Below the pieces are notes generated by a model. That model saw only the letters and a list, made by a program, of their open reading frames with translations, was not told the DNA's origin and did not search any database. Of a stretch of DNA of 64,000 nt, positions 5,915 through 63,846 are shown piece after piece (the first letter of the stretch is position 1; the number at the start of each line of letters is the position of its first letter). The DNA comes from Panorpa germanica (taxonomy: Eukaryota; Arthropoda; Insecta; Mecoptera; Panorpidae): contig OY783218.1 of the NCBI GenBank assembly GCA_963678705.1, forward strand, positions 4,846,152 through 4,910,151, given 5' to 3'. Position numbers and translations under genes: made by a program.

Positions 5915-6552
5915 AATGGGATTGTGTCCTCATTTTTCAGTGGTCGACTTTTCAATTGTTGATTGAAATTGATGTCAATAAATGTGTATTGGCGTGTCTA
6001 TTTTATTAAATATCTAAATGTTGACGGAGATATAGCAATTAAAAGTTTGAAATGTAGTTTTAGCGCTAGAAATGGTCGACCATATTTGTATGACGTGAAA
6101 TGCATTTTAACGTCAGTTACTTGTTGAGTAGGTCAGTGCTGTGGTAATGTTCTGTAGCTGTTGATAGTCAAATAATCAAGTCAAATCAAAGAATAATAAG
6201 TTTTTATTTTATTTAACCCTGCTAAGGCAGACATAATATTGAAATTTGATTGTTTCTTGAAATAGCTGTAAATAATATTTGATATTTTGATATATAAATA
6301 CATATAGCAGAGATTTATGAGCTGTAAGGTTGGTAACCTTAGACAAGGATTGTGATGTCACATGCACTTGGAATGCGTACAACGTTGAATCCCTTTAATA
6401 ATTAAAGAGACAAAATGTCTTGACAATTGTTAATATCTCTTAACATATAAGCAGTTATTAAAAAATAATTGAACATTTGAGGTTCTAGTAACCCACTTTA
6501 TCAATATATAGTACAGTTTTATAGAAATTAAGACATAGGACACAAGCCCATT
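5915..6552 (-). mobile_element. Non-autonomous TIR element, family A copy 1
   Basis: A 638-bp element in reverse orientation relative to the copies at 20690, 33836 and 63274. The outer ends form inverted repeats based on AATGGGCTTGTGTCCT; the left end here has one change, GGGATTGTG. The interior is collinear with the other copies over its whole length and contains no transposase-like frame. No target-site duplication was obvious by eye. The superfamily is unassigned. Confidence 0.8.
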
Positions 6553-14460: not shown

Positions 14461-15059
14461 TTTTCCTTTTCTTAAATATTTATTTGAGTGCATCAATATT
14501 CGATAGGTATTAGCACTTAAACAATATATACATTTATAAACATTTGTAATACATAATTTATAGTTTATAAATACGAGTATGTGTAGAATTGCATTTTTGT
14601 TTTCCTATTTCTCAGCTGATTATTATATGCTTTAAAAGTATGTTGATCTATTTTACTTCCATTTTTTCCAATTAATTTTTTTTTTTATTTACTTTATTTA
14701 ACATCATGGTAACAACATGGTAGTTTTATATGGCGTTGAGACTTCCAAAATTCAGAAAATATATAGCAGATCCGCAAATTAAACCTGAAGATACAACAAC
14801 CTCGTTTCTAGAATCATTATTCTTTACGGGGCACTACCAGGTCGAAAATTATCTTGTAGTGTAACTTTCACAGTATTTAGCTTGCCAAAAGCTAATTCCA
14901 AGTTTTTTTTCTACCTGGACTGACAAAAATATTAAAATAAAAATATTGACTTTAATAAATTTTCAATTTATCAAAAAGGTACTGGAATAATGACTAAGTT
15001 TGTCAGAGACATAATTAAAATGTATATCAGTGTTTAAACAAAGGTTTCAATAAATTAAA
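14461..15059. other. Upstream region of the GPCR exon
   Basis: AT-rich. It must contain the 5' UTR or an upstream intron of the receptor gene, but I see no decisive TATA box, initiator or splice acceptor. The Met codon at 15060 is preceded by AATTAAA, which is not informative. Confidence 0.3.
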
Positions 15060-15713
15060 ATGGCGCAGCAAACATTACAAAAACTTATCAGTGCATTAAA
15101 TGAAACAGATAAATGGGTTCCGAATGTATTGCCAATTGAAGACAATGAAGGGTACAGCTATTTGTCCTTCGACGACTGTGAACGCCTTCGTGACCTGGGC
15201 GCCTTCAACGATACCACATTTCAATCCGTCAACTTCACCCTGAACATGACAGCGGTGAGATGCTTGGACCACGCTCCAGTCCTCACGCAATCGTCTACAA
15301 TCCGCGCGGGGGTGTTGACAGCCATGGCGTTGATCTCGCTGTTTGGAAATATCGCCACCATACTCAGCATTCACATTTCTCGGCAACGACGCATCTCGAG
15401 ACACTCTTGGAGTGCAGTTTACACTTTAATCATCCACCTGTCAGTAGCAGATTTATTCGTGACGGTGTTTTGCATCGCTGGAGAAGCTGCCTGGAGTTAC
15501 ACAGTTGCTTGGCTTGCTGGAAATGTTTTTTGTAAATTGTTTAAATTTTTACAAATGTTCAGTTTGTATTCGTCGACTTTTGTGCTGGTGCTTATTGGAC
15601 TTGATCGATTTCTTGCGGTGCGGTACCCGATGAAGTCGCTGAGCACAACCCAGAGATGCAACCGACATCTTGTGGCCGCCTGGATCCTCAGTTTCGCTTT
15701 GAGTATTCCACAG
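15060..15713 (+). CDS. CrzR: Corazonin/ACP-type neuropeptide GPCR, first coding exon
   Basis: The exon codes for 218 residues of a rhodopsin-class receptor. The extracellular N-terminus (1-80) has four N-glycosylation sequons (N14, N50, N58, N62). TM1 is about 82-106 with the GN motif (G96 N97); TM2 is about 119-141 with LSVAD (D131). ECL1 has the conserved Trp (W153) and TM3 starts with the disulfide Cys (C158). TM3 ends in DRF (182-184) followed by LAVRYPMKSL, and TM4 starts at about 203. The FKFLQMFSLYSSTFVLVLIG stretch is typical of the corazonin/AKH/ACP receptors (GnRH-receptor superfamily) and favours corazonin or ACP receptor over AKH receptor. The frame reaches a phase-0 donor CAG|GTAATT at 15713/15714; the intronic read-through stops at 15740. 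TM5-TM7 are not encoded here and were not recognised later in the window. Expected ligand: corazonin, coupling to Gq/Gs in other insects (family knowledge). Confidence 0.85.
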
Positions 15714-15719
15714 GTAATT
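15714..15719 (+). other. Splice donor of the GPCR exon
   Basis: GTAATT directly after ...ATTCCACAG, in phase 0 at the Pro-Gln end of the TM4 start. An intron near TM4 is consistent with the fact that conserved receptor sequence stops exactly here. The matching acceptor was not identified. Confidence 0.75.
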
Positions 15720-15984
15720 ATATATTTTAGAAACGTTTAATTTAGCACTACAAATGAAATGAAAAAAGAATTATGTTTGTGAAAATACAAAAGTACTAGT
15801 ACTGCTGATATCTCGAAAACCAAAACACTTATTAAACAATAATATGAAAATTTGATATCATCATAAAAAAATACTTCCGAATATGAAAGATATTTCTATT
15901 TATCAATTACGGTTTTTGAATAATTTTTTTTTCATATTTTAGAATTTAAGGCGATTCCAACAACAAGGTCATATTCGCCTGAAG

Positions 15985-20600: not shown

Positions 20601-20689
20601 TAAGGTTTTAAAAAACAAAGAAAACATAAATTAAATTCTTTATTAAAAATGATACAGTGAATAATTACACATATTCCCATATGTTATAT
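17649..20689. other. Long AT-rich stretch without recognised genes
   Basis: Three kilobases with no recognised exon, RNA gene or repeat terminus. The 95-codon ORF at 19597-19884 is the most protein-like piece (mixed composition, higher GC at its 5' end), but I recognise no domain and do not call it. Confidence 0.35.
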
Positions 20690-21305
20690 AATGGGCTTGT
20701 GTCCTATGTCTTAATTTCTATAAAAATGTACTATATATTGATAAAGTGGGTTACTAGAACCTCAAATGTTCAATTATTTTTTAATAACTCCTTATATGTT
20801 AAGAGATATTAACAATTAAAAAAGTCATTTTGTCTCTTTAATTATTAAACGGATTCAACGTTGCACACATTCCAAGTGTATGTGACATCATAATCTTTGT
20901 GTAAGGTCATAAATCTCTGCTATATGTATTTATATATCAAAATATTAAATATTATATACAGCTATTTCAAGAAACAATCAAATTTCAATATTATGTCTGC
21001 CTTAGCAGGGTTAAATAAAATAAAAACTTATTATTCTTTGATTTGACTTGATTATTTGACTACCAACAGCTACAGAACATTACCACAGCACTGACCTACT
21101 CAACAAGTAACTGACGTTAAAATGCATTTCACGTCGTACAAATATCCGACCATTTCTAGCGCTAAAACTACAATTCAAACTTTTAATTGTTATATCTCCG
21201 TCAATATTTAGATATTTAATAAAATAGACACACCAATACACATTTATTAACATCAATTTCAATCAACAATTGAAAAATCGACCACTAAAAAATGAGGGCC
21301 CATTT
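20690..21305 (+). mobile_element. Non-autonomous TIR element, family A copy 2
   Basis: 616 bp, collinear with the copies at 33836 and 63274. It begins AATGGGCTTGTGTCCTATG; the right terminus is slightly eroded (GAGGGCCCATT instead of GAGGACACAAGCCCATT). No ORF of substance. The 60-codon reverse ORF at 21080-21262 is shared with other copies only in part and is not conserved. Confidence 0.8.
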
Positions 21306-33472: not shown

Positions 33473-34643
33473 GTGCCTTCCACTAAGCGTTCATAACGTC
33501 CACAAAATTATTTCTGCCGTTCCACATGGCGACCAAGGTCGTTGTGGTCGCGGCGAAAACGTAATTAATGACTTCAACGTCAACCTCACAACGACCCATC
33601 TGAAGAGTTGGTCGTAGTAGTCGTCGTTGAGCATTTCGACGCAATGTTTAAACATAACGCAAAACTTAAAGATGACGATGACAGAAAAATTTACTTTTTA
33701 TTATTCGGAAAGAGATATTTTATTTTATTATATAGTTCATATTTAACTGCCATTTACACATTTTTCCTCATACTCTAACTTAATAAATAAACAATGTTCA
33801 TTATCATTTAGAATATATCTCTTTAATGAAAACTTAATGGGCTTGTGTCCTATGTCTTAATTTCTATAAAACTGTACTATATATTGATAAAGTGGGTTAC
33901 TAGAACCTCAAATGTTCAATTATTTTTTAATAACTCCTTATATATTAAGAGACATTAACAGTTAAAAAAGTCATATTGTCTCTTTAATTATTAAAGGGAT
34001 TCAACGTTGTACACATTCCAACTGCATGTGACATCACAATCCTTGTGTAAGGTTACCAACCTTACAGATCATAAATCTCTGATATATGTATTTATATACC
34101 AAAATATCAAATATAATTTACAGCTATTTCAAGGAACAATAAAATTTCAATATTATGTCTGCCTTAGCAGGGTTAAATAAAATAAAAACTTATTATTCTT
34201 TGACTTGAGTTGATTATTTGACTACCAACAGCTACAAAACATTACCACAGCACTGACCTGCTCAACAAATAACTGACGTTAAAATGCATTTCACGTCATA
34301 CAAATATGGCCGACCATTTCTAGCGCTAAAACTGCAATTAAAACTTTTAATTGCTATATCTCCGTCAATATTTAGATATTTAATAAAATAGACACGCTAA
34401 TACACATTTATTAACATCAAGTTCAATCAACAATTGAAAAATCGACCACTAAAAAATGAGGACACAAGCCCATTATGTATGTAGATATAGCTTTTGCTAT
34501 AGAGCTATTTAATCAAGTAGCGCCTTATTTTTTCAACGCTCATAACTTCCAGTTGAGTGTATGCTTGCAACGCTCGCAACCAAGTGGAACGTGAAAAACA
34601 GCGGTCGTGAGCGTGATTGTTGTGAACGCTTAGTGGAACGCAC
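33473..34643. mobile_element. TIR element (family F) interrupted by a family A copy
   Basis: Inverted ends GTGCCTTCCACTAAGCGTTC (left) and, reversed, GTGCGTTCCACTAAGCGTTC (right). The interior is GC-richer than its surroundings at both ends (GGTCGTTGTGGTCGCGGCG on the left). A complete family A element (33836-34474) splits it, so the original was about 530 bp. No target duplication seen by eye. No coding capacity. Confidence 0.75.
33836..34474 (+). mobile_element. Non-autonomous TIR element, family A copy 3 (nested, best preserved)
   Basis: 639 bp with both termini intact: AATGGGCTTGTGTCCTATG on the left and, reversed, AATGGGCTTGTGTCCTCATT on the right. Collinear with the copies at 5915 (reverse), 20690 and 63274. 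It sits inside family F, so it inserted more recently than that element. Confidence 0.88.
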
Positions 34644-44836: not shown

Positions 44837-44909
44837 AAAGTGGTATTAAGTACTTGTTGTAGTAAGGAAATATCATGTTGCAGTATTACCCTAACCGTGT
44901 AATAATGTT

Positions 44910-45218
44910 TGTACGAAATAAAACCATGCGAGTATTTGTAGATTGAATAATTATTCAATTGTTTAATGATAAAATAATTTTACACTTTTTAATTACTTTG
45001 AACCAACATTCTTATAATAACAAGATGGTTGGGAATTATGATCTTGACAGTGTAGAAGCCCAAAACACAACTGACACGAATGCCATATCGCTGTAGCGTA
45101 CAGCAGTCGTCGTATTGTAGTCATGCGCATTACTTCTATTAGAGACAACAATACATTATAATGTTGGAATGCCAACAGAGACATCTTCTTATGTTCTGTA
45201 CTAATTTTGTACTGAACA
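44910..45218 (-). repeat. 3' LTR of the BEL/Pao element
   Basis: 309 bp, TG...CA on the plus strand (TGTACGAAAT ... GTACTGAACA), matching 47725-48033 throughout by eye. It is preceded by the target duplication ATGTT at 44905-44909. The 63-codon ORF within it also occurs in the other LTR and is not a gene. Confidence 0.95.
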
Positions 45219-45373
45219 TAAATTGCCAGCCAGCAGAAGTAGATAAGCTCACAACTAATATCAAATTATACAATGTTACATAAAATTATTATAAACCAAT
45301 TTACAAAAAATAATGTGAACTTCTTAAAACTATTATAAACAAAATTACACAAAATAACATAAACTTCTTAACT

Positions 45374-47056
45374 CTATGGTAGTCTACATAATTTTGTGAA
45401 AATAATATAAAACAAATTAATTACTATCCTAAATATAACAGAAACCATAATTATCAATGTAGCATACATTATCAATTGCATAATGTACACAACAATCATC
45501 AACTCAATAGTTACAATGTTATTGAAACAATTATCTTTTAACAATTCCAACAGTACAGATGTTTGTTTTACATCAATGTTGTAAACATTGCAATTAATAT
45601 CTGATGGAAGTATTGTATTTGAATCAAAAATTTTATTTGTTGCTTGTTTGATTCGCACCAGCAACACTGCGCTAATAATCTCAAGCTGGGGTATTGTAAG
45701 TACCTTACTTGATGGAGCTACACTAGACTTGTAGCAAATTAAATTTGTTTTTAACTTAATATTTATAAAAATAATATTGTGTTTTAAACCTAATGTCATG
45801 ATACTGGTTGATCTGTTTAATAATGTTTTATAAACCTCCAATACTGAAGGATTGCGTCTAAATCTTTTTTCCAACACATTAAATCTTTGCGGGGCAACTG
45901 AGAAAGAATCCTCCAATTCTATTTTATTTACTAGGCTGAGTAATGGCAAATCAACAGTTAAATTATTTTTAAGTGCTACTGAATTTTGAAATTTATGTTC
46001 AGCCTTTAAGTAATCCTCAGAAAACTTATCTGATTCCTCTGGGACTTTCTCAGTTGTCCAAGATTGTTCCATAACATTCTCAAGGTTTGTATATTCACAA
46101 ATAGCAAGATTACATACAATATTATTATGTGAATACTTATTTTTATTATACAATTTTCTTGGAACCACATTTCCTTTATTATTATTGTCATGTGACATAT
46201 TTTTATAATCTAAACTATACTCAATTGCAATTGCACGTCTTTCTAAAAATGAAATAAATTCTGCCATAGTAGGCAGTTCTTCTAAATTTCTTTCCATGTG
46301 GAACGTGCGGTTAGTAACGATATCTAATTTTCTACTTAAGGCCGAGATTAAAATCATATCCCACTTGTCTACAGGCTCATCAAGATTTTTTAACGCTTGT
46401 AATTGCTGTTTTACTTGACATAAAAAAGCCCTTATATCGACTGCAGTACCTTTCTGCATGTTGGGAATATCAAGTATTATATTAATGTGATAAAAGATTA
46501 ATCTCGCCTTATTTTCATACCGCGCTAACAATAAATCAATAGCCTCTTTGTATGAACTGTTCACAAGCGGCAGATTTATAATTATTGAGAGAGCCTCATC
46601 AACGAGATACTTTCTCAAATAAAAAAGTCTTTGAACATCGGACAATGATGCATTATTGTGAACCACTGCTTGGAAGAGCTCATAAAAGGGCTTAAACCTG
46701 GTTATATCCTTGCCATCGAAGGTTGGAATTTCCACCGCTGGGAGCTTCAATGGAACTAATTCAGGCCTATTAACTTCTTTTAACTTATTGATGCTAGCAT
46801 TTAATTTTGCAATAATGTTAAAATACTTTTCTTCAACTTCTTCAATGTCTTCCTCATCTTGATCATCAATTTCTAAAATGCTGTACTGCGTGAGCTCGTA
46901 CGATTGGAATGTAGTCATCATCTTTTCTTTTTTCACCTGCAGCACCTCCACTGTAGCGGAGTCGAGAGCCCTTGGGTCGCTGACGTAATTGTCCATCCGT
47001 GATATTGCACTTTTTGCAGCCGTCCGCGCCGATCTAAGCCTTTTCAATCCCTCCAT
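45374..47056 (-). CDS. Retroelement polyprotein: BEL/Pao gag (DUF1759) fused to pol remnants
   Basis: 560 uninterrupted codons from ATG 47056, the first long Met after the primer site. Residues 1-100 are basic then acidic (EEDIEEVEEKY, coiled-coil-like). Residues 105-290 match the DUF1759 gag of BEL/Pao elements: LPAVEIPTFDGKDITRFKPF, YLRKYLVDEAL, LLLARYENKARL, then FLERRAIAIEY. Residues 325-415 resemble the segment at the start of the Pao reverse transcriptase (ENVMEQSWTTEKVPEESDKF ... QRFNVLEKRFRRNPSVLEVY). Residues 450-470 (KVLTIPQLEIISAVLLVRIK) resemble a motif that normally lies far downstream near RNase H. The zinc knuckles, protease, RT palm with its catalytic Asp pair, and integrase are missing. 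The last 60 residues are hydrophobic and unrecognised. The frame has stayed open despite the deletions, which may mean very recent origin or retained gag-like function (inference). Confidence 0.85.
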   Translation of the reverse strand: MEGLKRLRSARTAAKSAISRMDNYVSDPRALDSATVEVLQVKKEKMMTTFQSYELTQYSILEIDDQDEEDIEEVEEKYFNIIAKLNASINKLKEVNRPELVPLKLPAVEIPTFDGKDITRFKPFYELFQAVVHNNASLSDVQRLFYLRKYLVDEALSIIINLPLVNSSYKEAIDLLLARYENKARLIFYHINIILDIPNMQKGTAVDIRAFLCQVKQQLQALKNLDEPVDKWDMILISALSRKLDIVTNRTFHMERNLEELPTMAEFISFLERRAIAIEYSLDYKNMSHDNNNKGNVVPRKLYNKNKYSHNNIVCNLAICEYTNLENVMEQSWTTEKVPEESDKFSEDYLKAEHKFQNSVALKNNLTVDLPLLSLVNKIELEDSFSVAPQRFNVLEKRFRRNPSVLEVYKTLLNRSTSIMTLGLKHNIIFINIKLKTNLICYKSSVAPSSKVLTIPQLEIISAVLLVRIKQATNKIFDSNTILPSDINCNVYNIDVKQTSVLLELLKDNCFNNIVTIELMIVVYIMQLIMYATLIIMVSVIFRIVINLFYIIFTKLCRLP

Positions 47057-47319
47057 CTTGCTTAGGTGATAGATTCGTACTTATATGATAGATGAAACGT
47101 GGATGACAAACTAATCCAGGTTAATCCAGCAACATGAGAAGTTTTTAATAGATTGGTACTTGCAGATAGTAATAATAACTTTGTACCTTCATGAGTAAAG
47201 AAGTATTTTACTCTCCTCCAGCATCCATGTATCCTCTTCCGTAATGAATAATTTTTCTTAAAATATAAACGTGTAGTAATCCAAATTATATGCGAATCCG
47301 CTTAAATCAAACGTTGCAT

Positions 47320-47700
47320 TACCCAATCAATGGCAATTGATGACTTGCCAGGCCGCCATAGGGCAAATGTAACAAAATAGCTTGCACTTGTGCTGGTTAC
47401 TATACAGATGTAACCTCAAAACACCACGAAATCACACGCGGGTACCAATGGCTTGTAAGGCCAGTTTTTTTTTTTTTGTAGGATTTAAAACCTTCTTGAA
47501 ATGTAATTGTAAAATATCCAGCTTCGCTTGTAAGGCTTCTGGAAATGTAATTGTAAAATATCCAAATCCTCCGTGAATCCGCCAAAATAGAGCGTCCCAT
47601 TTACCCAATCAATGGCAATCGCCAAGGGGCAAATGTAATAAAACGCCAAAAATACAATGAAAAACACACGCGGTTAATAAACTCGAAGGATCGGCTTTGT
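47320..47700. repeat. Internal repeats in the 5' untranslated part of the BEL/Pao element
   Basis: Two blocks are duplicated. ACCCAATCAATGGCAAT ... GGGCAAATGTAA occurs at about 47320-47375 and 47600-47640. GCTTGTAAGGC followed by GAAATGTAATTGTAAAATAT occurs at about 47450-47520 and 47526-47563. They lie between the primer site and the gag start on the element's own strand. Confidence 0.8.
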
Positions 47701-47704
47701 AAGA

Positions 47705-47716
47705 CTCGAAGGACCA
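47705..47716 (-). other. Primer-binding site, tRNA-Tyr type
   Basis: On the minus strand, 8 nt after the 5' LTR end, TGGTCCTTCGAG(TC) is complementary to the 3' end of animal cytosolic tRNA-Tyr (…GGCTCGAAGGA plus CCA): 12 contiguous matches and 13 of 14 overall, from memory of that tRNA. A second, weaker version (ctcgaaggatc) lies about 23 nt further inside on the same strand. Confidence 0.75.
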
Positions 47717-47724
47717 GCTTCGCA

Positions 47725-48033
47725 TGTACGAAATAAAACCATGCGAGTATTTGTAGATTGAATAATTATTCAATTGTTTAATGATAAAATAATTTTACAC
47801 TTTTTAATTACTTTGAACCAACATTCTTATAATAACAAGATGGTTGGGAATTATGATCTTGACAGTGTAGAAGCCCAAAACACAACTGACACGAATGCCA
47901 TATCGCTGTAGCGTACAGCAGTCGTCGTATTGTAGTCATGCGCATTACTTCTATTAGAGACAACAATACATTATAATGTTGGAATGCCAACAGAGACATC
48001 TTCTTATGTTCTGTACTAATTTTGTACTGAACA
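47725..48033 (-). repeat. 5' LTR of the BEL/Pao element
   Basis: 309 bp, equal in length and by eye identical to 44910-45218. On the plus strand it is followed by the target duplication ATGTT (48034-48038). It should contain the promoter for the minus-strand transcript; I cannot point to a specific TATA or initiator. Confidence 0.95.
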
Positions 48034-48039
48034 ATGTTC

Positions 48040-50937: not shown

Positions 50938-52054
50938 TTATAAGAATTCATCTCTTGGCATATATTTGGCTCTCTCTTTTCGCAAATAATTAACCTCAAA
51001 TTGTAAATTTTTATTTTCCCGTTTAAGTCTATCGTTTTCATTGCGAAGATCAAGGTCATCTGTTCTGGGCCTAAGCTCATCTAGCCGGTCCACTACAGCT
51101 AGATGCTGTTTGCACATCGATATATACAGCGACATCAGCTGCACTCTCGTAAACTGCATTAAATCAAATGTATTAAATTTAATACTTTCCAGAATACTTG
51201 CTGTTCCACTTTCTACGAGGTTACTGAGATTACTGAGATTTGGAAGGTCTGCAAACATGTCTTCTATATTGCTTTCATGTGGTGTTGCAGTTAAATCATT
51301 AGCTTCTTCTTCATCTTCTTCTGCTACAGAAGGAGACAAACTTTCAGGGGTATTAACTTGATGAGGCTCTTCCAAAGATGTTGCAGATGTCGATGCTCCT
51401 GTTAGTGAACTTCTGGTGGCGTATCCTTCTCCAATCACATCGAGGAAGAATGAGTCTCTAGGTTTTTTAAATGTTGGTGCTTTTTGATTGGTATTTGTTG
51501 AATTAGGACTCACGCCAATCATTTTTAGGAAAGAGTCTTCCGTCTGTTCTGCCCTGGTAGTTGTCTGCATTGGTGTTTCAGAATAACGGTTATCTTCTAT
51601 GCTAGATTCTATGCTAGAATTACCACGACATTCGTGAAGAGGTTTGTATCTTACTGACGTCACAGCACCATCGTGAGCTGCATTATATGCTATTGCTGTC
51701 TCGATGTTCCTCATATCGTAAACGACGACCCCTCCTTGGCGGTGACCACAGGCAGCATAATAACCATCCGGTGACGTACTAATCGATGTCAACGGATATG
51801 GCGTATGTACCACACATACTGGCTTAGGTAGTCGGGTATCGTACATATTGATCAGTTTATCATAACCAACGGTTATCATGACGTTTATTGTTAAACCGGA
51901 AAACGTCATATCTGAACAAATAGAGTGGTGATCATTGAACAACTTCAGTGGGGTCTTCTTTTTCAATATATCCCAAACTGCTAGACTTCCTGATTCCGTG
52001 GTTGCAGCCAACGCACTTCGACTGATCGGGCTGAAGTGGACGGATGTTACTGAC
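50938..52054 (-). CDS. NEDD1: NEDD1-like WD40 protein, second coding exon (C-terminal part)
   Basis: Residues 157-528 of a 528-residue protein. The exon starts after acceptor TTTAAG at 52055 and completes the split Gly codon, reading G-SVTSVHFSPISRSALA. Three further WD-type blades are visible: GSLAVWDILKK (VWD at about 182-184), YDKLINMYDTRLPK, and GGVVVYDMRNIETAIAYNAA, closing the propeller at about residue 296. A Ser/Thr/acidic linker of about 140 residues follows (EEDEEEANDL). The last ~85 residues are helical, with heptad-like spacing (RVQLMSLYISMCKQHLAVVD, then LDLRNENDRLKRENKNLQFE), ending RDEFL. In animal NEDD1 this C-terminal region binds gamma-tubulin and the propeller helps target gamma-TuRC to centrosomes and spindles. 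The ATG at 52092 upstream of the splice site is intronic. Confidence 0.9.
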
Positions 52055-52484
52055 CTTAAACAAACAAACATTACCTTTATATTTCTAGTCACAATTTAGA
52101 ATTATTAATCATAAGTATTGGGAGGTACATAACAGTATAAGTAAAGGGCAAGTCTCGGAGTGAAAGTTACAAAACTGAACATTCTGAAGACCAGCGAATA
52201 AAATATTTAGTATTACAGACATTTAGCAGACATGACACTTCTTATAAAAGTAAATGAAATGAAGGTACCACAAAAGAAAGTAATGTATCACTGGTAGAAA
52301 ATTGCCTTGGATTGAGTTTTCCGCACTTTCTAGCTTATCACAAGCTAATTACAAAGTTCAGTTTCTACTTTTTAACTAAAAACTGTCTTGCAATGCAAGT
52401 TTCACACTTTGTAATGTGCTACAAGCTAATTCCAAGATTCTCACTTTCTCTCTGAGGCACTTTATTTGTTATTTAAAGTCTCAC
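52055..52484 (-). other. Intron of the NEDD1-like gene, 430 bp
   Basis: Donor GG|GTGAGA at 52485/52484 and acceptor TTTAAG|G at 52055/52054. It is phase 2: the two Gs of exon 1 and the first G of exon 2 make one Gly codon, giving a continuous WD40 reading frame across the junction. Removing it yields 529 codons including the stop. Confidence 0.88.
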
Positions 52485-52954
52485 CCTTTTGAATTTGGCA
52501 ATTTCAGTCGGTCCATCTTGACATTACTAATTATGCCATACAGATCTACCTCGCTCCTTTCCCCGCCAACTGCCATGTAAGTATCTGCACAACAAACATC
52601 CAAAGACGTAACGGAGGAATTAAGAGGAGTAAATTCCTTGCATACTTTTTGCGCTCTTGTGTCCCACACCTTAACAACTCCTGCTGATGTTCCGGCAGCA
52701 ATATAGTGATTAGTTTGCTTGTAGAAGGTTGCAGCGGAACAATTAACAATGTTAACTCGTTGGATTCTTTTCGTTTCTACATCATTAGGTCGTAAGATCT
52801 GCGCCTGCCCAGTTGCAGTCACTGTCACCATGTATTGTGAGTCATAACTCCAATCTAGAGGGCGTATCGCTTCATCGAAGTTTCCATATTGTTGTTGGAC
52901 CTCGTAATTTGAGTCATAGAATATTATTTGTTTTCCTCCAGATGCCAAAAACAT
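52485..52954 (-). CDS. NEDD1: NEDD1-like WD40 protein, first coding exon
   Basis: Residues 1-156 plus two bases. It starts MFLASGGKQIIFYDSNYEVQ, corresponding to the short N-terminus before the first blade in animal NEDD1. WD-type blades are visible at DWSYDSQYMVTVTATGQAQI (about 35-54), at GTSAGVVKVWDTRAQKVCKE (VWD 96-98), and a third starting SSVTSLDVCCADTYMAVGGE. The ATG at 52954 lies only seven bases after a good acceptor (TTTCAG, ending 52962), so transcription probably starts in an upstream non-coding exon not identified here. Together with the second exon the protein is 528 residues, somewhat shorter than vertebrate NEDD1 (about 660), mainly in the linker. The family name comes from the propeller-plus-C-terminal-helix layout; a gamma-TuRC targeting role is inferred. 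Confidence 0.9.
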
Positions 52955-52956
52955 GA

Positions 52957-52966
52957 TGATTCTGAA
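52957..52966 (-). other. Splice acceptor just upstream of the NEDD1-like start codon
   Basis: AAATTTCAG followed by AATCATC and the ATG. Indicates a 5' UTR intron whose donor lies further right (not identified). Confidence 0.5.
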
Positions 52967-55420
52967 ATTTACAAATTTGTGGAATAATTAACATTTTTTT
53001 ATTTTTTATATATAATTTCTCGGGCTTCTTAAGCACGTAGCCTTTGTCGCCACTAAAAATGTTCGGCTTTTTCTTATACTTTATATCCCGACAACAAGAA
53101 TGATCTATTCATAGCCATTGCTGTTATAAATAATAATTAACATTATTGTAGTGTATATAAGGAATTATTAAACGGATTTGTCAGGATATCCTTTCGAAGG
53201 ATTGGTGCAACAAAAAAGCTAACTGTAAACACGAAGGCAACAATATTAACAATTAAAATAGTTGTTATATTTCGGTTGTGAACCACTACAATATGTTTTG
53301 ATAAACTTGGCTATAATATTTTATTTACATTTATTTAAATGTTTAGAGTATAGAAATATATGTAATTACAAACCTTTTTCATGTAGTTTCATTCAGTACG
53401 AATATTTTTCAACAGTAAATATCACTTAACATACCCAAGTAACAAATGGAACTGATTTATATTACAAATTTTACAAGTCAAGTAAACGTTGTGTCTTTTG
53501 TTTCACGATTACTTTTATAAATTCCTTACAACAATAGCATTGTAATAAACCATTCTAATTGATCCATTTTAAACAATCAGGTTTCTTTTTTTATATTTCA
53601 AATGTCTACAACAGACCCCACTATAACGCGAGTTTCTGCAATGCGAACTTATATAATTACGAAAAGAATATTACGTCAACTACTTCAAAATATTTTCTCG
53701 TGCAATGCCACACTGTTAAAATTATTAGCCACACTTTTAAAAGAAAATTTATGAAGTGTTACGAATATCCTATCAAAATGCACTCATAATTCTATATTAA
53801 TAAAAATCTGTAATAAATTTAAGACAACATTTAACAGTGTGTAGAATAACGTGTTACGGAACCTCCCACTTTTATTTAATATTTATTGTGTAGAGAAAAG
53901 AATTCTTTCGTCTTCGTTTTGTTTGTTTTCTATTCGAATAAAAAAAAATGATTACATACATCTAACTACGCGCTATTGTTATTAAATTAGTTTGATACAC
54001 AGATGTTCAATGACTTCCATGCTGATAAGTGGACGGGCACCTTTAATTGAGTGTTTGCTTTTATAACATTAAACACAATTTCTTAATACTCAAAACATTG
54101 TGATAACGTAACATTTAATTAACATTGTGATAACGTAATTTTAAAAAAGGTTAACTTTGGATTATAATATTCTTTTAAATATTTGTAAAATAATTAATTA
54201 ATCTTTTTCAATCAACTCAAATAACAATTTCTTGAAGTGAACAATGCAATAAAACTCGTGAACCTCTCAGAATAATTTTCTTATTGTCTAAGTTCAGGTA
54301 TTTTACCAGAAAATTTACTTTCGAAAAGTTTTCTTTATACAAAGTCATTTTCTGAATTCCTTAAGTGTAAAGTTATCGATAATGAAGTCTGCTTTTTATT
54401 TGTGTCATGCTCGACTTCGTTTTAAGTGATGAAACAAATTGTGAATAAATATTTTAGAAAATCGGATCCAGCATCCTATATTTAAGAAGAATCACTATTG
54501 TAACAAAGGTAAAATTATTTTTTTGGCTTAAAGTGTTTCTTAAAATAAAAATAAAAATAACTCATAAAGAAAATTGACGTAATTGACATTTATAACTACG
54601 AGTATATTTGGAATGTTAGCGAATAACTTTAAATGCATTTAAGCTAAGAACAAGCCTATTGTAAGACAGTATATGTAGTCCCGCCATGTTTAATTGGGTT
54701 CCTTGGATCTTTAAGAATATCTTAATTTTATTGTAGTACCGTAATACATTTTGTTAAACTTGCGGGGACATATGCATACTGCTTCCAAAGAGATACGCCG
54801 AATTTTTTTGTATTTGCGGAATTAATTCTATATTTCTACTATATATATAGTATACTCGTATATAAGTGGAAAACGAGAGTACTATCCCAATTCTGATGTG
54901 GAAAACAATACCCAATCCGCTAATCTGATGTGGAATCAAGGTACTCTTATTTAATTCAGGGCAAATGTCAATTCAATTAATATTCAACTATGCAATATCT
55001 TAGTTTCTAGTCAGGATGATAAAGAATCACGTAATTTGTTTAATACATTTATTTAATAAAATAATTACGATCATAATAATACAATAAGGTTACAATATAA
55101 ACGTTGGTATTTACTTTACAAATACAGAACAATGAATGAACAAACCATCTTAAATTCTAGTTATTATATACTCAGTCCTATATTAGTTTTTAGCTAGATT
55201 TAATAGGTTTATTTTTATTGAGAATGCGCTTAGTTAATTTCGATAAGCACATTCCTTCACGTATTCAATCAGTGGTTTAAAGATTCACACATTTTAATTG
55301 CTTTAACCTTTGACTTGGTTTCCGTTCACAATATACACTTATTAATCACATTCTTTTATGACTTTTCTAGCTCGGGTGTTATAGTTATGATTACTTTGTA
55401 TGCTCGATTTATTTTTACGA
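52967..55420. other. AT-rich DNA upstream of the NEDD1-like gene
   Basis: Probably contains the gene's promoter and non-coding first exon. I recognise no other gene, RNA or repeat terminus. Confidence 0.35.
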
Positions 55421-61745: not shown

Positions 61746-63273
61746 TAATATACAAAATATGAATCGAAAAACAGGGTGTATCAAATTACGCGACACTGTT
61801 TGTAATTAAATAGAAGATATGTTTGTTTAGGTACTATACAAATATTACAAATGTTGTATTTTATGAATAAAAGAATTCGTAGGCACCTAATCATTTAAGG
61901 TGAATATCGAGAAAATCTTTACTCTCCTAAAATTTTTCAAAATTCTATGAGGAGATTTTTGTGTATAACAGAAAATAGTTGGGCGGATCGAAAGTTTTAC
62001 ATGCTTCAAATGGGAGATGAAGCTCAAAATTTCTAACTTTATTATTAATTATCTCAGATTCTAAACGGTCAAAAATTCTGAAACTACGAGATTTATTAGT
62101 AAACGTTATGCTTAGCTAAAACCTATCGAAAAGTGGTTTCACGCTGGAACTACCTTAAGCAATACAAATCTGTGTAATTACAATTCTGGTACAAACTCCA
62201 TTTAGATTGTTAAGAATGTCGGAAAAGCCAGAACATTAGAAATGAATTATTCAAGGCACAATGACAGAGGATTTATATGAAATAAATTAAATGTAAAATT
62301 GAAAAAGTTTTTTAATCTATCAAAAATAATACTTCTATAAAACTAAGGACTAAAACAACCATCCTTTATTAGTTCCGCTTTATAGATCCACAAGACAATT
62401 TAAATAAAATATTAATATCTTAAATATTCTTGGTATTTAGTTTTTTGTTGACTTTTTTAAATGATTCTTTTTATATACTCGTATAAACTCTCGCAATAAA
62501 AATGTAAATTTTTTTTTTTAGTTTCGCCCGTCTGAATATTTCTTGTTATTTTTATTTCGTGAATGATTATTTTTAAATATAAAACATATTTTCTATAAAA
62601 AAAAGAATTTTATATGTATATTGTTTTTGTCAAACTAAATAAATAACATGTCACTATTTTGACACTTACGATTTAGAAATGTAAGTGGTTTGTATATAAA
62701 ATATAGAAGATTTGAATAAAATTAAGGATTAAATTGTCTCCGTCATATGCAACGAGATTTTGTTGTTGGATCAGTTAAATTCCAACCGAGACGAGAAAAA
62801 AAACTTATTAATATTAATTCGTAATATATTAGTTTCGTTTTCTGTTCAATTTTATCTGAATATGATGAATGAATAATTTTAAATCGAAGTTGAACTTCAA
62901 AATATAAAATTAGAACTTTGAGGTTATGAATTTAAATAGAATTTGAAAAGTTTATGAACTACTTTTCTAATGTCTGGCTTTTTTAAATGTGGTTTCTTGT
63001 TTTATTAAAAAACCAAAAGTTTATGAAGATATTTTCACAAGCTATAAAATAGTAATTTAAATTATTCCGCATTCAATTTTGTCCAACTGTCGAACAGTCA
63101 AATTTTTTATTACCAACTAAATTATCTAATGTCAAATTAAAACACGAATGTGACAAGGAATTCTGAAAACCTGAAGTCTGGATTAAAATATTAAATAAAA
63201 ACATAAATTAAATATCAAGTGGTAATAAAGCTTAACATTAAAAAAAACGCCATAATACTTATTACTTTATTAC
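61746..63273. other. AT-rich intergenic DNA
   Basis: No gene or repeat boundary recognised. Confidence 0.35.
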
Positions 63274-63846
63274 AATGGGCTTGTGTCTATGTCTTTATTT
63301 CTATAAAAATGTACTCAAATGTTCAATTATTTTTTAATAACTCCTTATATGTTAGGAGATATTAACAATTAAAAATGTCATTTTGTCTCTTTAATTATTA
63401 AAGGGATCAACGTTGCACAACTTTTCAATTGCATGTGACCTCACAACCGCTAGTTGCTATCTCTTTTATATAACACACCGTAAAAGAGGTATATTCTTGA
63501 CAGAACTCTGACAAGTTTACAGGTTACCAACCTTACAGCTCATAAATCTATATGTATTTATATATCAAAATATCAAATATTATTTACAGCTATTTCCAGG
63601 AACAATAAAATTTCAATATTATGTCTGCCGTAACAGAGTTAAATAAAATAAAAACTTATTATTCTTGAGCTTGACTTGATTTTTTCGACTACCAACAGCT
63701 ACAAATCATTACCACAGCACTGACCTATCTTTTGACCTGACATTTAGATATTTAATAAAATAGACACGCCAATACACATTTATTAACATCAACTTCAATC
63801 AACAATTAAAAAATCGACCACTAAGAAATGAGTACACAAGTCCATT
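63274..63846 (+). mobile_element. Non-autonomous TIR element, family A copy 4
   Basis: 573 bp, ends AATGGGCTTGTGTC (left) and, reversed, AATGGACTTGTGTACTC (right). Relative to the copy at 33836 it lacks the segment after GTACT near its left end and the CAACAAGTAACTGACGTTAA portion near its right end. It gains about 75 bp (around 63445-63520, including CTCTTTTATATAACACACCG). Confidence 0.8.

Follow-up and report, generated by a model that had tools for sequence, protein, structure and literature searches.

Non-autonomous retroelements are commonly viewed as elements that have lost their coding capacity. Among the closest described systems, the non-autonomous Athila families of Arabidopsis (Ty3/gypsy) display a gag with omega values of 0.19-0.38, recombine with one another and include pol in only four of 11 gag-defined families (PMC2410132). 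In wheat, RLG_Quinta combines an intact GAG ORF with a domain of unknown function, shares its primer site with its autonomous partner RLG_Cereba and has been proposed as a GAG donor (PMC11302176). Three insect systems are also relevant: Bel-21_AG of Anopheles gambiae, a 3.8-kb non-autonomous Pao-Bel element with identical LTRs and one 927-aa ORF, described from three copies with no recognised domain and neutral by its authors' dN/dS (PMC3212995); PbTRIM of the harvester ant, a non-autonomous LTR family of 480-781 bp with a 4-bp duplication and no coding capacity (PMC3532108); and CM-gag of Culex, which by its title "contains only a gag gene" (a reference-list entry in PMC3286476). Finally, the defective D-type elements of bovine ERVK[2-1-LTR] are more numerous than the competent elements with which they recombine, and trans-complementation is assumed for them (PMC10924933). 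In our searches of the open-licence literature of PubMed Central, we saw no non-autonomous element, animal or BEL/Pao, for which constraint on gag was demonstrated. The family of Panorpa germanica described below is in our judgement probably an established BEL/Pao family that is not autonomous: its insertions are young, full-length BEL/Pao elements would mobilise it in trans, and its own capsid domain is kept under selection.

The window (i.e., the whole 64-kb stretch of DNA that was analysed) contains a retroelement of 3,124 bp at positions 44910-48033, on the minus strand, on which all its parts lie. It is flanked by identical ATGTT target-site duplications (44905-44909 on the left and 48034-48038 on the right), and its 5' LTR (47725-48033) and 3' LTR (44910-45218) are both 309 bp long, have TG...CA ends and show no difference over 309/309 sites on exact alignment. 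The sequence-only reading had described equal-length identical LTRs and a perfect 5-bp duplication, and had deduced a very recent insertion; the exact alignment bears this out. Between the LTRs lie a 5' leader of 668 bp (47057-47724), which is indel-rich between copies, and a single ORF of 560 aa (45374-47056, including the stop). No further copy of the family was found within the window; up to E<=1, neither the window nor L009-L028 showed a relative below 90% identity, and the IMG/VR viral contigs yielded no relative. As to its surroundings, the window also carries a short interspersed repeat family of ∼630 bp at 5915-6552, 20686-21297, 33836-34474 and 63271-63846 (three full repeats 92-94% identical, the fourth broken), exon-like open frames on the minus strand at 50938-52095 and 52481-52987 that resemble a WD40 (NEDD1-like) protein by eye, and a GPCR-like open frame, also named by eye, at 15054-15740 of the plus strand.

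The ORF joins a gag domain to two remnants of pol. In the Pfam scan, residues 113-252 (46301-46720) match DUF1759 (97 bits, the cut-off being 25.4; E=1.4e-27), and a 43-residue piece at residues 434-476 (45629-45757) matches positions 106-148 of the 162 of the Peptidase_A17 profile with 27.3 bits against a cut-off of 22.3 (E=4e-6); no other family was found in the ORF at E<=1, and neither RT nor integrase. Alignment with L029, a BEL element of this genome with a long ORF, places both pol pieces collinearly, with ∼1.0 kb between them absent from the ORF. Residues 435-487 align with the end of the A17 region of L029 at 43% identity, and residues about 325-427 (45776-46084) align after its protease, i.e., in the protease-RT interval, in a weak tblastn match (25% identity, E=0.012); the same piece matches another BEL locus (L040) at 22% identity (tblastn, E=0.002). 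The placement of this putative pre-RT remnant rests on collinearity, and the missing ∼1.0 kb should hold the RT core. In this respect, the Pfam scan and the L029 alignment corroborate the earlier description of one 560-codon frame in which a DUF1759 gag is fused to two pol-derived pieces while the pol enzymes are absent. Indeed, of a complete Pao-type pol (protease, RT, RNase H/A17 and integrase), only the A17 fragment and the pre-RT piece remain. The BEL/Pao traits that are present are the DUF1759 gag, the LTR pair with TG...CA ends and a target duplication as short as is usual for BEL/Pao. Judged from its sequence, the element is BEL/Pao-derived and incomplete as a member of BEL/Pao, on the understanding that DUF1759 may not be exclusive to BEL/Pao, since it also occurs in an element of this genome (L051) whose RT start is gypsy-like by eye.

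The ORF ends with a hydrophobic tail (residues 488-560, 45377-45595) that shows no sign of constraint. Compared with 301 stop-free base shuffles, its hydrophobic maximum was reached by 3% of them and its number of windows by 0.3%. We do not claim a membrane anchor, since this composition is unusual and yet the tail is unconstrained. No zinc knuckle is visible to the eye in the ORF, which makes RNA binding by this gag doubtful. A sequence search of the PDB with the ORF gave no match at E<=1, and a structure predicted with 15 copies as input (mean pLDDT of 37.7) was set aside.

The element belongs to a large family. In the 464-Mb assembly, which contains the window, we identified at least 161 distinct gag-bearing places, of which 38 are LTR-selected copies and the remainder are matches from three other searches: with the gag DNA (40 scored of 646 first-look candidates), with the protein (78 of 2,656) and with the ORF of a divergent copy, L016 (40 of 990); first-look candidates are not to be equated with verified copies. 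From 1,220 first-look candidates, the LTR search listed 40 places in 42 match rows, one place having two extra pieces besides its main match; all 40 main matches were 100% identical. Among the other 39 places, 20 were examined with their flanks and turned out to be 18 elements that have two LTRs and share the internal structure of the window copy, plus two solo LTRs; at the 19 others, where only the ORF stretch was fetched, the ORF was present in every case (19/19). Perfect target duplications surround 20 of 21 insertions, window copy included, the exception being L027, whose flanks differ. In addition, the ORF is spanned end to end in 40/40 listed matches of the L016-ORF search (39 over 1-1719 and one over 1-1716), and the longest frame among the best 78 protein matches is 646 aa, with no gag-pol frame there. 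The copy L016 itself (G000:C8:18723900-18731300) has additional, incomplete LTR pieces at one of its ends and a stretch of leader that is repeated, and is, from this arrangement, a nested insertion or a recombination product.

A chance origin is excluded by the LTR identity, by the duplication and by the many copies that are built alike. The copy number also rules out a one-off deletion; of the two outcomes that would have spoken against the sequence-only reading, i.e., a single-copy deletion and LTRs differing on exact alignment, neither occurred, and copies with the same junctions form a multicopy family. A TRIM or LARD, defined by the lack of coding sequence between the LTRs, is ruled out by the 560-aa ORF. 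Of the traits characteristic of the Athila/Quinta type, the element has an LTR pair, no pol enzymes, many copies of the same structure, an intact gag ORF with purifying selection in its DUF1759 region, and a primer site in common with long-ORF BEL families (see below for the last two). It is hardly conceivable that the ORF is an exapted host gene flanked by LTRs by coincidence; such a gene would account for purifying selection on DUF1759 (see below), but it is at odds with at least 161 dispersed places and with target duplications that are perfect in all but one of the 21 insertions examined.

The reading frame is maintained throughout the family. It is open in all 46 copies read (window + 18 + 19 + 8), including 38/38 LTR-selected copies, which were picked irrespective of the ORF, and 8/8 extra copies from the DNA ranking, for which the stretch fetched was the aligned ORF itself. 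Since the ORF lengths that are multiples of three in these 46 copies follow from reading open frames and are not a separate test, length was examined separately in the L016-ORF DNA matches: all 40 listed differ by multiples of three, with a net length relative to the L016 ORF of 0 (20 matches), -9 (17) or +12 (3) bases. In the 5' leader of 17 copies, gap runs are of 1, 2, 3, 4, 5, 7, 13 and 44 (alignment without L013 and L016, because of their tandem duplications; an alignment of the 3'-UTR, which L016 distorted, is disregarded). In the protein search, 77 of the 78 listed matches are stop-free and one contains a TAG, in a ranking that favours intact copies.

To assess selection, every change was scored a single time relative to the commonest codon, and the transition bias was derived from the data themselves; the counts per region come from the 46 copies and replace earlier ones from 19 and 38 copies. 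Over the whole ORF, 56 of 121 changes are synonymous versus 26.8% expected (P=3.3e-6), and no nonsense change occurs versus 4.6 expected (P=0.009). The signal is strongest in DUF1759, with 21/28 synonymous changes (P=1.8e-7; omega-like ratio of 0.12). The other regions gave 9/21 for residues 1-112 (P=0.08), 3/10 for residues 253-324 (P=0.5), 12/28 for the pre-RT piece (P=0.06), 7/18 for the A17 piece (P=0.2) and 4/16 for the C-terminal tail (P=0.6); pooling residues 253-560 yields 26/72 (P=0.048), i.e., a weak constraint. These regional counts locate the protein-level selection signal in the capsid domain, and DUF1759 is on this basis under purifying selection, as the sequence-only reading had envisaged for its gag-like protein. 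For DUF1759, the synonymous excess speaks against the other option that it had raised, an ORF that has simply not had time to decay; for the C-terminal half, this option may hold. Among singletons, 12/39 (19 copies) and 15/47 (38 copies) are synonymous, close to neutral; once eight more divergent copies are added, the figure becomes 23/52 (P=0.005). As near-neutrality vanished in the 46-copy set, the contrast between singletons and shared changes is not used as support.

As for age, 2 differences occur over 5,562 sites in the LTR pairs of 18 elements with two full LTRs (L016 excluded), a sample that leans young because its elements were chosen by the identity of one LTR to the window LTR. ORF divergence across the 46 copies is 1.1% on average and reaches 3.5%, from which we conclude that the sampled insertions are young and that the active lineages, older than these insertions, have by this measure diverged for longer; old or decayed copies are under-sampled, since the copies come from the top of rankings. 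All four gametes are observed in 404 of 703 site pairs with 38 copies and in 256 of 465 with 19 copies, and the copies are thus mosaics. Such a pattern would be expected from template switching between co-packaged RNAs, with gene conversion as the alternative. It is important to consider here a purely parasitic element, for which helper proteins do everything, the ORF is open through youth and the excess of synonymous changes stems from a full-length parent with which sequence is still exchanged. Young insertions, frequent recombination and a C-terminal half under little constraint would all fit with it. We nevertheless regard it as unlikely, since the DUF1759 changes common to several copies are themselves mostly synonymous (13/18), no gag-pol frame exists among the best 78 protein matches (longest frame of 646 aa) and the complete chimeric ORF is what all 40 listed DNA matches contain.

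A family mobilised in trans, as we propose, raises the question of its helpers. The tRNA primer site noted earlier is indeed present, as TGGTCCTTCGAG at 47705-47716, 8 nt inside the 5' LTR and not flush with it; with such an offset, the end of the cDNA would retain extra bases. The 12-nt TGGTCCTTCGAG occurs in 14/19 family copies and its first 11 nt only, TGGTCCTTCGA, in 5/19. The site presumably corresponds to the 3' end of tRNA-Tyr; within the window itself, ARAGORN detected no tRNA. Of five long-ORF BEL families of the genome with ends fetched, three have these 12 nt where their 5' LTR ends. There, TGGTCCTTCGAGCCGGAT is flush with the LTR in L045 and L049, and either flush with it or at most 3 nt away in L041, where the fetched edge cuts into the LTR; the two others have variants before TTCGAGCCGGAT. 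At the other end of the window element, the stretch preceding the 3' LTR (45219-45250), where a polypurine tract is expected, ends in GCTGGCTGGCAATTTA and shows no visible tract, which leaves plus-strand priming unexplained; another family of the same genome (L037) carries GGGGGGAGTA before its 3' LTR, as seen in L050. Neither this absence nor the offset of the primer site figures in the sequence-only reading. With regard to the LTRs themselves, comparison with the ends of the five families, two of them with complete LTRs, gave only short matches at chance level, and none of the five has matching LTR ends.

Potential helpers are numerous, since 150 matches scored of 1,682 candidates in the A17 family search include at least 39 in open frames of 1,614-1,767 aa. 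In L029, the one candidate helper locus scanned, a 3.5-kb stretch contains protease, A17 (192 bits) and integrase domains and gave no RT model at E<=0.01, so that helpers of this type are called autonomous from their frame length and domains. The gag of the element is 31-34% identical to those of L041, L049 and a second family (L051/L052), and has no match at E<=0.01 in L043, L045 and L047, whose fetched stretches include little or no gag. Its A17 piece reaches at most 49% identity to the 25 A17 loci at the top of the list (11 families at 80% DNA identity), several of which gave no match at all. As none of these 25 loci is a close parent with the same gag or A17 piece, the deletion of pol is probably not recent, and the earlier idea of a young deletion loses its footing for the families compared; a closer parent may exist among the other BEL families of the genome. 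The low gag identity also bears on a further alternative, in which the gag would act against the helpers, as a dominant-negative or biasing capsid in their particles, and be kept for favouring the packaging of its own RNA. A capsid domain selected while the enzymes were lost, and a C-terminal part made of pol scraps and a hydrophobic tail, would be in line with such a role, but an identity of only 31-34% to the matched gags makes co-assembly uncertain, and we hold this alternative to be quite improbable.

Taken together, the mechanism that we favour for this trans-mobilised family is as follows. The family would have lost protease, RT, RNase H and integrase and kept its gag-like ORF. Its RNA, transcribed from the LTR, would be primed at the tRNA site also used by long-ORF BEL elements of the same genome, and would be copied and integrated in trans by the RT and integrase of a helper. 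The DUF1759 protein would contribute capsid to the particles, preferentially aiding its own RNA, because selection on the own ORF of a multicopy parasite is otherwise hard to explain. All steps after transcription, i.e., trans-mobilisation, co-packaging and the role of the protein in the particle, are those that we infer; mobilisation in trans, already put forward from the sequence, follows from the lack of RT and integrase in an element that has yet reached many copies. An intact capsid gene without copying enzymes suggests that the family rides on the enzymes of others while supplying shell protein.

Other DUF1759 elements were encountered during this work. In a second family, ∼95 of 150 scored PF03564 matches fall within open frames 831-871 aa long, and most of them score 118.8 bits. 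The one copy read (L051, G000:C3:3101500-3107900) has an 832-aa ORF with DUF1759, a retroviral aspartyl protease and, by eye, the start of a gypsy-like RT, gave no RVT_1 match, and is flanked by direct repeats 96% identical; judging from this copy, the second family also appears to be non-autonomous, of a gag-plus-protease type. A 1,652-aa open frame at L052 (G000:C2:20044200-20046800) is 93.9% identical to L051 over 1,741 bp of leader and gag and is, from this likeness, a possible autonomous partner of that family. Finally, nine DUF1759 matches (118.8 bits) on both strands, often ∼4.7-5 kb apart within 48 kb (G000:C2:13299748-13347207), probably form a local cluster or nest of the same second family.

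More tentatively, and with somewhat less than even confidence, the element may belong to a long-lived class of BEL/Pao satellites with capsid as sole product, acting partly in cis and borrowing only enzymes from distantly related BEL helpers, so that each satellite RNA would build or bias its own particles. If so, and considering the second gag-plus-protease family, LTR satellites of this genome would repeatedly keep gag and discard enzymes. A capsid kept under constraint without enzymes, alongside the many long-ORF BEL elements of the same genome, renders the cis action of LTR-element capsids testable, and the same system allows satellites to be tested as parasites versus capsid donors.

Compared with known systems, Athila is the precedent for pol-less elements with a constrained gag, RLG_Quinta for an intact gag and Bel-21_AG for a short non-autonomous insect BEL element. 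Like PbTRIM, the family is a non-autonomous LTR family of an insect without an identified autonomous partner (PMC3532108), and the bovine ERVK[2-1-LTR] D-type elements, unlike it, have no intact ORFs (PMC10924933). It shares with Athila its LTRs and an intact Gag ORF in the absence of pol, but Athila is a plant Ty3/gypsy lineage with env in some members, whereas here an animal BEL/Pao element has pol scraps fused to gag (PMC2410132). As in RLG_Quinta, a non-autonomous element with an intact gag ORF has a primer site in common with its presumed helpers; the partner of Quinta was identified by LTR ends, primer site and PPT, whereas here, among the families fetched, the primer site alone matches (PMC11302176). 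Finally, the family resembles Bel-21_AG as a short insect BEL family with one long ORF and identical LTRs, and differs from it by its at least 161 places and by a DUF1759 domain that is both recognised and constrained (PMC3212995).
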